Assembly (NCBI GenBank): GCA_019240635.1
Contig: JAFAYA010000073.1
Location: 1 to 39,415 of the forward strand
Source: Acidisphaera sp.
GTDB lineage: Bacteria; Pseudomonadota; Alphaproteobacteria; Acetobacterales; Acetobacteraceae
DNA length: 39,415 bases
Direction of reading: 5' to 3'
This document shows positions 1,973 through 24,623 of the stretch, piece by piece. Under the pieces are notes generated by a model that saw only the letters and a program-made list of their open reading frames with translations, ran no database searches and was not told the origin of the DNA. The stretch's first letter is position 1. The number at the start of each line of letters is the position of its first letter. A program made the position numbers and the translations under genes.

Positions 1973-4093
1973 TCAGACGAAGGCGCTGTGCGACAGGCCG
2001 GAGACGCCCTGCACCGTGACCTGCGTGCCGTCGCCCAGGCTGAACACCGTGCTGCCGCCCGAGCCGGTGGCCGCCTGCGACATCGCCGCCGCCACCTGGT
2101 TGGCCGAGTAGCCGGCCAGCGCGATGTGGTCGGTGCCGGCCTTGAAGCCGTAGATGATGTCGTTCCCTCCGGCGCTGCCGTTGGCGAACTCGTAGAGATC
2201 GGTTCCGGTGCCGCCGAAGAACACGCCGCTGCCCGAGCCGCCGAACACCGTGGAGGCGCCGCTGCCCTCGATCAGCGTCGTGTTGCCCTTGCCCGCGAAG
2301 GTAAGGTCGCTGCCGCTGCCGCCGAAGATCGTGGAGACGCCGGATCCGGCATAGACCTGCTCGCTGCCGTTGCCGTCCAGGATCAGGTCGTAGCCGGAGC
2401 CGCCGACGATCATGTCGGAGGTCGGGCCGCCGAAGATCACGTTCTGGCCGTGCCCGGCGAAGGCGGTGTTGTTCTGGCCGCCGCCGTCGACGATCAGGTC
2501 GGTGCCGGCGTTGCCGACCAGCAGGTTGCCGTCGCCGCCGCCGACCAGCGTGGCGTTGCCCTGGCCGGCCGCAAAGATGTTGCCGCCCTTGCTGCCGCCG
2601 AAGGCCAGCGTGTTTCCCGTGCCGCCGAACAGCGTCAGCTTGCCCGAGCCGCCGGTCACCGCCAGCGAACCGGTACCGCCGATCACGGTGCTGGTGCCGG
2701 CGCCGTTCGCGAAATTCATGCTGCCCTGGCCGGCGAACACCGCGGCGTTGCCGGTCGCGGCGATGGTTGCCGCACCCAGCCCGCCCAGAATGGTGTCCTG
2801 GCCGCCGCTGGCCACCTGGTCGGCACCGCTGCCGAGGTAGATCGCGTTGTCGCCGGTGCCGGTGGCGATCGAATCGTTGCCGGACGCGGCGTTAATCATG
2901 TTGTCGCCGTTGCCGACCGACACGACCCAGCTGCCGCCACCCACGCTCGGCGCGACGAAGTTGTTGTCGGTCAGCGGCATGCTGGAATGGCTGTTCGGAT
3001 TGTAGGTGCCGTCCGCCAGCATCACACCGTTGCCCGTTCCGGCGTACACGGTCAGGCTGGCGTACGAGCCGCGGATCACCTGGTTGGCGCTGCCGCCCGA
3101 CAGGCTCACCGGCTGGTCGGCGGTGTCGTCAACGAGGCTGATGTTGTTGGGCAGCACCACCGTGCCGTCACCGATGTTGGCGTCGGTCAGCTGGGTGTAG
3201 CCGACCTGCGTCGAGCTGACGGTCGGGTCGGTGCCGTTGCTCGGGTCATAGGCGACGAGGCTCGGCGAGCCGCCATTGGCCTGCGCGCTCGCCCCCGCCG
3301 CCGCCTGGTAGCCGGCCTGGATCTGTGCGGCGAACGGGTTGCCGTCCTCGCCGGTGATCGGCATGTAGGTCGGTGCGCTGCCGGATTGGCTGGAGGAGGA
3401 CTGGTCCGAGGTGGGAGGCGAGCCGCTGCCGCTTTGGCTGGTGGTGCCGCTGCCCGAGTTGCTCGCCGCCGCGCTGGTCGCGCTGGAGACGGCGCTCAGC
3501 AGCGAGGCGAGGCCGGCGGGCAGGCCCGGCGCGTCCGGCGCGGCGAACGGGTTCGAGCTGCTCGATGAGGAGGAACTGCCGGACCCGGAGCTTGCCGTCG
3601 CATTGGAGCTGGGCGCGGTGCTCGCGGTCGACGGGGAGGCGGCCGGCGCGCTGCTCGCGGCGCCGCTGCCGGCGGAATTGCCGCTGCTCGCGGCCGGCGC
3701 GCCCGTACTGCTCGAGTTTGTGCCGCTCGAGCTCGTGCCGCTGCCCGACGACCCGGAACCGGTGTCGGCACTCCCGCTCGAGGTCGGCGTGCTGGTCGTG
3801 TCGCTGCCGGTGGAGCTTGACCCGAAGCCGCCAAGTGTCGGCGCGGTCGGCGCGACCAGGAAAGGCAGGGAACTCAGCGGATTGCTGGAGGAAGACGTGC
3901 TGCTGCCCGAGGTGCCGGCGCCGGAGGTGCCGGTTCCGGAGGTGCCCGCGCCGGAAGTACCTGAGCCGGAAGCGCCGGCGCCGGTCCCCGACGTGTCGCT
4001 GCCGGAGCTGGCGGCGGGCGTGCTGGTCGGGGTGGTGGACGTGGACCCGGTGGGCAGGGTCGGGACGGTGGGGACGGAGAACGTGAAGGACAT
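1973..4093 (-). CDS. Large RTX-like repeat protein, probably secreted
   Basis: 706 aa. Residues 1-250 are extremely Ser/Thr/Gly/Ala-rich low-complexity sequence, broken by short hydrophobic islands starting NPL (71) and NPF (181, 252). Residues 290-390 are a more ordinary beta-type segment. Residues about 392-635 carry some two dozen Gly/Asn/Asp-rich turns. Some fit the RTX nonapeptide GGxGxDxUx (GGSGYDLIL, GGSGSDLTF, GGTGTDLYEF); many are degenerate without the Asp. Residues 636-706 (NDIIYGFKAGTDHIALAGY and onward) resemble the C-terminal cap of Ca2+-binding RTX/serralysin proteins. I saw no cysteine and no N-terminal signal peptide, which fits type I secretion using a C-terminal signal. No enzymatic domain is recognisable and no transporter genes are nearby. 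It may be an adhesin, matrix or surface protein. The start MSFTFSVPTVPTLP is the first ATG of the open frame. Confidence 0.75.
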   Translation of the reverse strand: MSFTFSVPTVPTLPTGSTSTTPTSTPAASSGSDTSGTGAGASGSGTSGAGTSGTGTSGAGTSGSSTSSSSNPLSSLPFLVAPTAPTLGGFGSSSTGSDTTSTPTSSGSADTGSGSSGSGTSSSGTNSSSTGAPAASSGNSAGSGAASSAPAASPSTASTAPSSNATASSGSGSSSSSSSSNPFAAPDAPGLPAGLASLLSAVSSATSAAASNSGSGTTSQSGSGSPPTSDQSSSSQSGSAPTYMPITGEDGNPFAAQIQAGYQAAAGASAQANGGSPSLVAYDPSNGTDPTVSSTQVGYTQLTDANIGDGTVVLPNNISLVDDTADQPVSLSGGSANQVIRGSYASLTVYAGTGNGVMLADGTYNPNSHSSMPLTDNNFVAPSVGGGSWVVSVGNGDNMINAASGNDSIATGTGDNAIYLGSGADQVASGGQDTILGGLGAATIAATGNAAVFAGQGSMNFANGAGTSTVIGGTGSLAVTGGSGKLTLFGGTGNTLAFGGSKGGNIFAAGQGNATLVGGGDGNLLVGNAGTDLIVDGGGQNNTAFAGHGQNVIFGGPTSDMIVGGSGYDLILDGNGSEQVYAGSGVSTIFGGSGSDLTFAGKGNTTLIEGSGASTVFGGSGSGVFFGGTGTDLYEFANGSAGGNDIIYGFKAGTDHIALAGYSANQVAAAMSQAATGSGGSTVFSLGDGTQVTVQGVSGLSHSAFV

Positions 4094-22438: not shown

Positions 22439-23158
22439 TCAGATCGGCGGCATCGCGGGTGGCGCCGGGAATGGCGGCGCTTCCGGCGGGTCCGGCGGTG
22501 GCGGGGCAGGGGGGACGACCTCGTCGGGCGGCGCCTCCGGCGACTCCCGCGTGGTCCGGTCCGGCAGCCAGGCCGCGGCCTGCTCGGCCCGCGCCAGCGA
22601 CCCGTCCAGCGCGGCCATGGTCGCCGAGAGGTCGGCGCTGCCGTCGCGCTGCCACGCGCGCACCGTCCACAGCCACACCGCCAGCAGCGCCTTCGCCCGC
22701 AGCGCGCCGAGCGGGCCGGAGGCCGGCACCCCCGCACCGTCGAGCAGCCACGCCATGCTGCGCAGAGTGGCCGCGGCGAGCAGCAACGCGGTCACGGGCT
22801 CGAAGGGCAACCCGCGCAGCAGCGCCAGCACGCCCGCCCGGTGCGCCTGCAGCACGTCGATGCGCCGCATCACCGCCTCGAACAGCCGGTCGCGCACGCT
22901 GCCTTCCGCGCCGGCATCGCCCGCCAGCGCCGCCTGGTCGGCGATGCGGCCGAAGCGCAGCAGTACCGCGACGCGGCAGGGAAAGCGCGCCCGCGCCCGG
23001 TCCAGCGGCAGCCCGCCCAGCCGGGCGGCCGCGCCGACGCTCAACCGGGCGTAGCCCCGTTCGGCGATCACCGCGAAGGCGCTGGCGACGAGCGCGCGAT
23101 CGAACTCGGCATCGCCGAGTGCCGCTGGATCGAGGCCCGTGCCGATCGGCCCGCTCAC
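22439..23158 (-). CDS. TetR-like transcriptional regulator with Pro-rich tail
   Basis: 239 aa. Residues about 18-62 (FDRALVASAFAVIAERGYARLSVGAAARLGGLPLDRARARFP) fit the TetR N-terminal helix-turn-helix: a helical start, GYARLSV, then AAxxGG. The rest is helical and Ala/Leu-rich, as in TetR ligand domains (or COQ9-like proteins, which share this fold). The last 35 residues are an acidic proline-rich tail (repeated PP, PEAPP), unusual for TetR. The start is the GTG at 23158, overlapping the proC stop (GTGA), so translation is coupled to proC. Ligand and targets unknown; the neighbouring phasin is an obvious candidate target. Confidence 0.7.
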   Translation of the reverse strand: MSGPIGTGLDPAALGDAEFDRALVASAFAVIAERGYARLSVGAAARLGGLPLDRARARFPCRVAVLLRFGRIADQAALAGDAGAEGSVRDRLFEAVMRRIDVLQAHRAGVLALLRGLPFEPVTALLLAAATLRSMAWLLDGAGVPASGPLGALRAKALLAVWLWTVRAWQRDGSADLSATMAALDGSLARAEQAAAWLPDRTTRESPEAPPDEVVPPAPPPPDPPEAPPFPAPPAMPPI

Positions 23159-23958
23159 CCCGCCAGCTCGCGCGACCGCGCGGCCGCCGCCGCCACGGCG
23201 CGGGAGATCGCCTCCGGCCACGCCGTCGGCGCCATCAGCACCGCGAGCGCGCGCTCGGTCGTACCGCCGGGGCTGGTCACCGCCCGGCGCAGCGCCGCCG
23301 CGTCCTCCTCGCTGGCCGCGAGCAGCGCGCCCGAGCCGCTCACCGTGCGTCGCGCCAGCAGCCGCGCGAGGCTCGCCGGCAGCCCCTGCGCCAGCGCCGC
23401 CTGCTCGAGCAGCTCGGCAAGCAGGAACACGTAGGCCGGCCCGGAGCCCGAGACGGCGGTGACCGCATCGATCATCGCCTCGTCCTCGACCCAGGCGACG
23501 GCCCCGATCGCCGCCAGCAGCGTGTCGCAGAGGGCGCGCTGCGCGGCGCTCACCCCGGGCCCGGCGACGGCGACGGTCACGCCCTGGCGCACTGCCGCGG
23601 GCGTGTTCGGCATCGCCCGCACCACCGCTGCCTCGCCCAGCAGCTGGCGGATGCCGCCCAGGGTCCGCCCGGCCATGATGGAGAGGAACACCGCCGACCC
23701 CGCGAACCGCCGATAGGCGGGCAGCACCGCCGCGGCGTTCTGCGGCTTGACCGCCAGCACCACCGCGGCCGGCGCGAAGTCGCGCGGAATTGCGTCGGCG
23801 TCGGCGACCAGCGCCGCGCCCTCGACCGGCACCGGCGGCGCGGGATCGACGGCGACCGAGGCCGCCAGTCCCCGCTCACGCCAGCCGGCGAGCATGGCCC
23901 CGCCCATCCGCCCCGCGCCGACCAGCAGGATCGGCGGGATCGCGCCGGCGCTGCTCAC
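23155..23958 (-). CDS. proC: Pyrroline-5-carboxylate reductase
   Basis: 267 aa, normal length, last step of proline synthesis (NAD(P)H-dependent). The Rossmann loop PPILLVGAGRMGGAM is at the N-terminus, VVLAVKPQN and VVRAMPNTPAAVRQG lie in the middle, and the signature AVSGSGPAYVFLLAELLEQAALAQGLP and SPGGTTERAL near the end. The proposed start is GTG 23956-23958, which lies at the edge of a MITE-like element (23961-24111). No Shine-Dalgarno sequence precedes it. The frame is also open into the element from a GTG at 24012, which would add 18 element-encoded residues. The gene ends in a GTGA overlap with the TetR-like gene. Confidence 0.92.
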   Translation of the reverse strand: MSSAGAIPPILLVGAGRMGGAMLAGWRERGLAASVAVDPAPPVPVEGAALVADADAIPRDFAPAAVVLAVKPQNAAAVLPAYRRFAGSAVFLSIMAGRTLGGIRQLLGEAAVVRAMPNTPAAVRQGVTVAVAGPGVSAAQRALCDTLLAAIGAVAWVEDEAMIDAVTAVSGSGPAYVFLLAELLEQAALAQGLPASLARLLARRTVSGSGALLAASEEDAAALRRAVTSPGGTTERALAVLMAPTAWPEAISRAVAAAAARSRELAG

Positions 23959-23960
23959 GC

Positions 23961-24111
23961 TAGTGGTCCGATCGCTGCAGTCGGTTCCCGACTGCAGCGT
24001 GAATCGGCCCACAAGCAGACTCTCTGGTCGTGCGATTCACGATGCAGATGGCGCACCGGCCGATGTTCGGGCCCGCGATACGGGGAGCCATCTGCATCGA
24101 TCGCACCACTA
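23961..24111. mobile_element. MITE-like element with nested inverted repeats
   Basis: About 151 bp bounded by TA at both ends (23961-23962 and 24110-24111). The termini are imperfect inverted repeats: CGCTAGTGGTCCGATCGCTG from 23958 inward, and CGCTAGTGGTGCGATCGATG read inward from 24114 on the other strand. Inside are two hairpins. The first has a perfect 12-bp stem (23973-23984 with 23988-23999, loop TTC). The second has a long stem (24030-24052 with 24087-24106). Both carry an asymmetric TGA/TCA bulge in mirror positions, so the element as a whole is nearly symmetrical. It has no coding capacity. Terminal TA suggests an IS630/Tc1-mariner-type insertion, but no transposase is present to confirm it. 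Confidence 0.65.
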
Positions 24112-24119
24112 GCGGCCGC

Positions 24120-24623
24120 TCATGCCTCCCCGGCGCACTCCAGCATGGCGGCCTGCATCGCCTCGCCCGGCGCCTTGCCGCCCCACAGCACGAACTGGAA
24201 CGCCGGATAGAAGCGCTCGCACTCGGTGATCGCGATGTCGACCATGTCCTCGATGCTCTCCGACGAGGCGCCGGGGGCGCCGCGCAGCAGCACGGAGTGG
24301 CGGAACACCGGCATGCCGTCGTCGCTGTCCATGCCGAAATGGCCGATCCACAGCCGCTCGTTGGCCAGCGCCAGCAGCTCGTAGAGCGCGCTGCGGCGGC
24401 GCGCCGGCACCTTCAGGTCGAAGGCGCAGGTGAAGTGCATGGCGCTGATCTCGTGCGACCAGCTGAAATAGAGGCCGTAGTCGCACCACTTGCCCGGCGC
24501 CTCGGCCGCCATCTCGGAGTCGCTGCGCCGGTCGAACGCCCACTCGTTGGCGGCGACGATCTGCTCCACGATGTCGAGGGGGTTGGCGGCGCTGTCCTGC
24601 GCCTGGGTCGGCTGGACGGACAT
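24120..24623 (-). CDS. YbjN domain-containing protein
   Basis: 167 aa. ANEWAFDRRSDSEMAAEAPGKWCDYGLYFSWSHEISAMHFTCAFDLKVPARRRSALYELLALANERLWIGHFGMDSDDGMPVFRHSVLL matches the YbjN/type III secretion chaperone-like fold found throughout Rhodospirillales. A biochemical role is not established; YbjN in enterobacteria is tied to stress and motility phenotypes. The ATG at 24623 follows GGGAGA. It lies downstream of ubiK, and its stop is only 8 nt from the MITE-like element that separates it from proC. Confidence 0.85.
   Translation of the reverse strand: MSVQPTQAQDSAANPLDIVEQIVAANEWAFDRRSDSEMAAEAPGKWCDYGLYFSWSHEISAMHFTCAFDLKVPARRRSALYELLALANERLWIGHFGMDSDDGMPVFRHSVLLRGAPGASSESIEDMVDIAITECERFYPAFQFVLWGGKAPGEAMQAAMLECAGEA

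Follow-up and report, generated by a model that had tools for sequence, protein, structure and literature searches.

The spacer between the ybjN-family gene and proC on this Acidisphaera sp. contig holds a copy of a miniature element belonging to a genuine, patchily distributed family of MITEs of Acetobacteraceae and other Alphaproteobacteria, REP-like in its internal organization. The family is what is new here; MITEs as a kind of system are already known. Our preferred explanation, which we regard as probable, is that the element is moved in trans, most likely by an IS630/Tc1-mariner-type DDE enzyme, and inserts at CTAG. A trans-acting transposase would recognise the element ends and carry out this insertion, duplicating the central TA and possibly all four bases. 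Coordinates refer to the window, i.e., the whole stretch of 39,415 nucleotides that was analysed.

Boundaries and anatomy of the element

The initial annotation described a nested palindrome at 23958-24114. Its inverted repeat was confirmed (arms 23958-23989 and 24083-24114, with a complementarity of 84%; repeats I2, I3, and I6 lie internally), its fold was far more stable than those of shuffled sequences, and many copies were found in the same genome. CTAG, and thus TA, was indeed present at both ends, but the limits shrink to 23960-24112: the complete element, read on the minus strand, spans 153 bp from CTAG to CTAG, as delimited by alignment of copies from its own genome, a 13-copy alignment, and the empty orthologous site L076. 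Beyond these boundaries the bases vary from copy to copy in the own-genome alignment. The CG of CGCTAGTGGT is a chance match absent from other copies, and the extra CG on each side of CTAG is flank outside the element proper. The terminal CTAG on the proC side (23960-23963) is target-derived or duplicated and its counterpart on the ybjN side (24109-24112) was placed by the own-genome alignment; nearly all copies have CTAG at both ends. This tetranucleotide occurs 8 times in the window against about 108 occurrences expected from base composition, and two of the eight are the element ends.

In the sense of the ybjN-proC operon, the element consists of unit 2, a linker, and unit 1. Unit 1 (23960-24013, plus strand) is made of CTAGTGGTCCGATCG, a 10-bp variable stem, a TTC loop, and CGTGAATCGGCCCAC, as defined by a 50-sequence alignment in which the CTAG tag was retained in nearly all units. 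It is self-complementary over 21 pairs with a TGA bulge. The linker (24014-24024, minus strand), which reads GAGAGTCTGCT on the operon strand, separates it from the second self-complementary unit. Unit 2 (24025-24112, minus strand) was delineated from repeats I1-I3, the fold, and the copies, and comprises CTAGTGGTGCGATCG, a ATGCAGATGGC stem, a variable loop, and GCCATCTGCATCGTGAATCGCACGACCA, with GGTGC at its end and CGTGAATCGCAC internally. The element is thus a head-to-head pair of units of 54 and 88 nt. After CTAG its ends read TGGTCCGATCG, with the end form CTAGTGGTSCGATCG. Terminal inverted repeats, claimed previously, do exist on both sides, but the 15-nt ends differ at one base (GGTCC versus GGTGC). 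This base finds its complement within the unit to which it belongs and would be a mismatch if the two ends paired with each other; the units therefore pair with themselves, and perfectly so at each end. Neither the reading frames of the element nor the alignment of its copies contained a conserved ORF, in agreement with the lack of coding capacity noted before.

Copies and distribution

The MAG from which the element comes (G000) is a 2.39 Mb draft that is 72% complete. It contains 11 complete copies, of which L014 has an internal deletion, four more that are truncated at contig ends, and several fragments. The copies for which the initial annotation proposed to search thus number about 15 in this genome, with more in several genera. 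Identities in the own-genome search ranged from 77 to 97%, and nine other full-length copies were 86-97% identical to the window copy. A MAG of the same genus (G001, 97% complete) has three complete copies, all adjoining genes other than those next to the G000 copies. Across 120 genomes of the family, the exact end 15-mer was found 21 times in G000, five times in G001, and once or twice in each of three of the 118 others; the reversed pattern, used as a control, matched once in all 120 genomes. Searching with the unit 1 pattern retrieved 61 stretches in named genomes, mainly MAGs of Roseomonas, where the element has a version of 122-123 bp. By sequence identity, the element was also recognised in G001, Roseococcus thiosulfatophilus (G045), Caldovatus aquaticus (G048), Rhodovarius lipocyclicus (G127), and a Rhodospirillaceae genome (G086). 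Similar DNA was not found in collections of plasmids and phages. Some loci (L016 and L033) hold half-copies, which are not required of a strict MITE and count against that reading.

Two loci show elements joined end to end. At L200 (about 2562-2804, minus strand), two complete elements lie in tandem and have a degenerate CTAG (CTCG) in common, as if the terminal CTAG of one had served as insertion site for the second. In G086 (L037, identical to L202, CP030885; about 1635-1800), a copy adjoins a second palindrome with which it has one CTAG in common. The latter differs in sequence and has the same layout, namely CTAGAGCG, GATCG-stem-CGTGAATCGCTCT, and GCTCTAG, which suggests a wider superfamily of double-hairpin elements bounded by CTAG.

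Empty sites and target duplication

The orthologous ybjN-proC spacer of G001 is free of the element (...GAGGCGTAAGGGC-GTG-AGC), and so are those of 24 other relatives in which both genes were recognised. The element therefore interrupts this junction, as had been proposed, and the window copy would postdate the divergence from the nearest relative. At three G000 sites, G001 clearly lacks an insertion: ybjN-proC, glcE-glcF, and the pair formed by a secretion ATPase and a membrane protein. A selected regulatory RNA, local to the ybjN-proC operon and not mobile, could account for the very stable fold and for the position at the proC start; yet some 15 further copies are scattered through the genome, and every relative examined lacks the element in the orthologous spacer. 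We rule this explanation out as the primary one. A conserved spacer and the absence of further copies, which would have spoken for such a local structure, were both contradicted, and the mobile reading stood.

Since the flanks of G000 and G001 are too diverged to read a duplication, sister species of Roseomonas were used instead. Empty sites with joined flanks (about 89-96% DNA identity) were found for five loci. At three of them CTAG is present once (the empty site being seen in one, two, and one species, respectively), a fourth has CTAA in ten species, and a fifth has CTAT in several. Filled sites have one CTAG on each side as opposed to the single CTA(G/A/T) of the empty ones. Hence, insertion duplicates at least TA within CTAN, and all four bases may be duplicated; duplications of 2 and 4 bp read alike because CTAG stands on both flanks. 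Another case was found in G000, where a copy (L002, 1502-1654, G000:C20) interrupts a gene of the CorA transporter family, the frame being ended by the terminal TAG. When this copy was removed and one CTAG kept, the frame became continuous and Pfam CorA matched across the junction (E 2e-18). The TA formerly noted at both boundaries is accordingly part of a target duplication, as the empty Roseomonas sites and the corA frame indicate. At one Roseomonas site (L222, L217, L197), the four bases after the duplicated TA read ACCA in ten empty species and GCTG in the filled allele, a difference at three positions that the insertion reaction may have left behind.

These sites would also suit a MITE of an IS5-family element with a CTAG or YTAA target and a 4-bp duplication. 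In Pseudomonas syringae, the IS5-type MITEPsy1 is inserted behind CTAG or YTAA, which becomes duplicated (PMC3189936), so the TA is not unique to IS630-type insertion, and the CTAG, CTAA, and CTAT found here are what such an origin allows. However, the TGGTCCGATCG ends are unlike the GGAAGG-type end given for MITEPsy1, and we judge an IS5 origin unlikely.

Candidate transposases

In its anatomy the element also resembles a REP/BIME-type dimer (REPIN) such as would be spread by a Y1 transposase of the RAYT type: it has a tetranucleotide tag on the outside and imperfect hairpins in head-to-head pairs, occurs as singles and in tandem arrays, and lends TAG stop codons to neighbouring genes (PMC3733652). 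Its hairpin units form head-to-head dimers as those of REPs do, whereas the tag before the imperfect hairpin is CTAG and not GTAG or GTRG. Against a RAYT, Y1_Tnp (PF01797) was absent from all five genomes searched (G000, 72% complete; G001, 97% complete; G035, G045, and G048), while the same search was positive in five control genomes. The target duplication at empty sites is a further objection, as is the observation that the CTAG present at both ends is single in empty sites, which implies that one of the two, if not both, acts as target sequence. Spread by a RAYT is thus a quite improbable explanation.

We provisionally favour an IS630/Tc1-mariner-type driver. That IS630 prefers TA within 5'-CTAG-3' is announced in the title of a 1991 paper by Tenzen and Ohtsubo (cited in PMC2170065). 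Duplication of TA is established for this family, ISY100 being a member that shows it (PMC2170065). This kinship, suggested in the initial annotation, is in keeping with the TA-in-CTAG target, but the transposase copy with the same ends that it called for was not among the PF13358 loci of 18 genomes. No IS630-type DDE protein (PF13358) was detected in G000 at its 72% completeness, and none of the PF13358 loci of 17 other genomes, scanned for CTAGTGGT ends, had matching ones. Likewise, when end-to-end spacing was scanned in three Roseomonas genomes, paired ends lay at most about 240 bp from each other, i.e., in miniature forms only.

Position and orientation relative to genes

Most copies touch the end of a gene, and the TAG within CTAG is the stop codon of that gene. 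CTAG is very rare in the genome and, beside genes, would often form a TAG stop. Such a distribution would account for the placement of copies at the ends of genes and in tight operon junctions, ybjN-proC among them, because insertion at the rare CTAG near genes would often mean insertion at a stop codon.

The orientation of the copies is left unexplained by this cause. In G000 and G001 together, ten copies lie between co-directional genes (L031, L003, L004, L005, L006, L010, L011, L032, L038, and L040), and in all of them unit 1 points toward the start codon of the downstream gene, a bias with a two-sided p of about 0.002 that was noticed post hoc. In upstream to downstream order, these pairs are ybjN and proC, permease and MFS, DUF1194 and aldo-keto reductase, glcE and glcF, secretion ATPase and membrane protein, permease and ABC ATPase, SpoVR and ApbA, dehydroquinase and TIM barrel, and the L003 and L006 genes followed by an ABC ATPase and a short-chain dehydrogenase, respectively. 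Genes around the G000 copies were called from frame GC content and Pfam; within this set, Pfam supports both sides of eight pairs and the downstream side only of two. In Roseomonas, where a rough gene call gave 12 copies in one orientation to 8 in the other, no clear bias was seen. As CTAG is a palindrome, insertion alone should not cause an orientation bias. We tentatively consider, as a rather unlikely proposal, that the element acts as an operon-compatible mobile RNA device, kept in one orientation between co-transcribed genes of the genus (10 of 10), whose RNA fold or own upstream GTG might sustain or reset downstream translation once the Shine-Dalgarno site has been displaced.

The proC initiation region

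The proC gene (pyrroline-5-carboxylate reductase, 23155-23958, minus strand; Pfam P5CR_dimer, E 2.7e-30) starts at a GTG (23956-23958) situated 1 nt outside the element, and the ybjN-family gene (24120-24623, minus strand; Pfam YbjN, E 1.8e-37; 91% identical to its G001 ortholog) ends 7 nt before it. The element does adjoin the proC start codon, as initially described. The GTG itself is native, however, for GTG-AGC is conserved in the element-free L076; this rules out the element as its source and speaks against replacement of the original start. A GGAGG at the 3' end of ybjN (24125-24129, minus strand), judged by its sequence, was probably the Shine-Dalgarno site of proC, and a similar purine stretch occurs at the ybjN end of L076 just before the proC GTG. 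In the window the element now lies between the two, and it is the insertion that would have parted them.

An in-frame GTG within the element (24010-24012, minus strand; ORF 23155-24012) would add 18 residues to ProC, an extension that may be possible on sequence grounds. It lacks comparative support: the native GTG is conserved, the upstream GTG is base-paired in the predicted RNA, and 1-nt deletions in the L004 and L005 copies break its frame. The idea that the element supplies a promoter or terminator found no support either, as scanning revealed neither a sigma-70-like promoter nor an intrinsic terminator. A fold bridging the upstream GGAG to the start codon was considered and rejected, being consistent by eye with glcF and failing at the other junctions. 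In the predicted fold, the RNA forms a closed four-way junction whose end lies immediately ahead of the proC GTG. Positioned over the initiation region, this junction should weaken or uncouple translation of proC, and our model points to a likely reduction or uncoupling of ProC synthesis.

Folding and paired stem changes

The DNA strand folded at -64.1 kcal/mol, whereas shuffles gave -40.4 +/- 3.2 (z -7.4) and none of the 200 reached the same stability; the 153-nt RNA fold had a z of -8.3. An Rfam scan of the window gave zero matches. Among 50 distinct unit 1 sequences, 96.1% of pair cells were paired versus 89.3% in shuffles, and 12 pairs had changed on both sides as opposed to a shuffle mean of 4.3. 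The covariation score was 0.208 against 0.081 (0 of 500 shuffles as high); because the sequences are related, these counts are not probabilities. Sliding the partner by one to three columns reduced the paired fraction to 27-53%. Throughout the alignment, the TGA bulge is almost invariant.

Such a pattern could also be produced without selection on folded DNA or RNA. Quasipalindrome-templated mutation during replication perfects the arms of a palindrome without selection, is compatible with the MITE reading, and could yield the same covariation; within one genome, L010 and L004 already differ from the window copy by changes that match between the arms. By contrast, pairing persists in distant genera whose stems are unrelated in sequence (L037, L196, and L199), and the near invariance of the bulge is not what templated repair, which should erase it, would leave. 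We regard templated mutation as a possible source of the matched changes, though a less likely one than not.

Comparison with known systems

The element is similar to the bacterial MITEs related to IS630/Tc1-mariner, namely RUP of pneumococcus and Correia/NEMIS of Neisseria, in being shorter than 200 bp with terminal inverted repeats and TA ends, in encoding no protein, and in having a structured transcript and copies beside genes (PMC2229807). Compared with RUP and NEMIS as described, it is G+C-rich, has CTAG ends and no matching IS found, and is built of two self-complementary units whose stems change in step. With MITEPsy1 of Pseudomonas syringae, a MITE of about 100 bp, it has in common a CTAG (or YTAA) target and its duplication (PMC3189936), but their ends and internal structures differ, and MITEPsy1 has been seen to move.

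On the side of REPs, the GTAG-tagged dimers (BIME/REPIN) likewise consist of tagged imperfect hairpins in head-to-head heterodimers, often supply TAG stops, and also occur as singles (PMC3733652). The element described here differs from them in its CTAG tag, target duplication, longer units (54 and 88 nt), and the absence of Y1/RAYT from the genomes searched. The CGTC-tagged REPs of Alphaproteobacteria are found in the same class, mostly as head-to-head dimers, and have no known transposase (PMC3733652); they possess an unpaired CGTC tag and a stem of 8-9 bp, in contrast to CTAG and 21 pairs with a TGA bulge. The palindrome adjoining the copy in G086 (CTAGAGCG...GCTCTAG) resembles the element in its CTAG ends and its GATCG-stem-CGTGAATC units and differs in sequence. 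It may be of the rhizobial RIME or Brucella Bru-RS sort.

The insertions at ybjN-proC, glcE-glcF, and the secretion ATPase and membrane protein pair provide natural cases of a 153-nt structured insert between co-directional genes, with empty orthologs for comparison. What moves the alphaproteobacterial palindromes that have no dedicated transposase is an open question (PMC3733652), on which a REP-style dimer with target duplication and no RAYT found has a bearing. The element bridges two classes that are usually kept apart, namely REP-like hairpin dimers, thought to be RAYT-dependent, and MITEs with a TA target.
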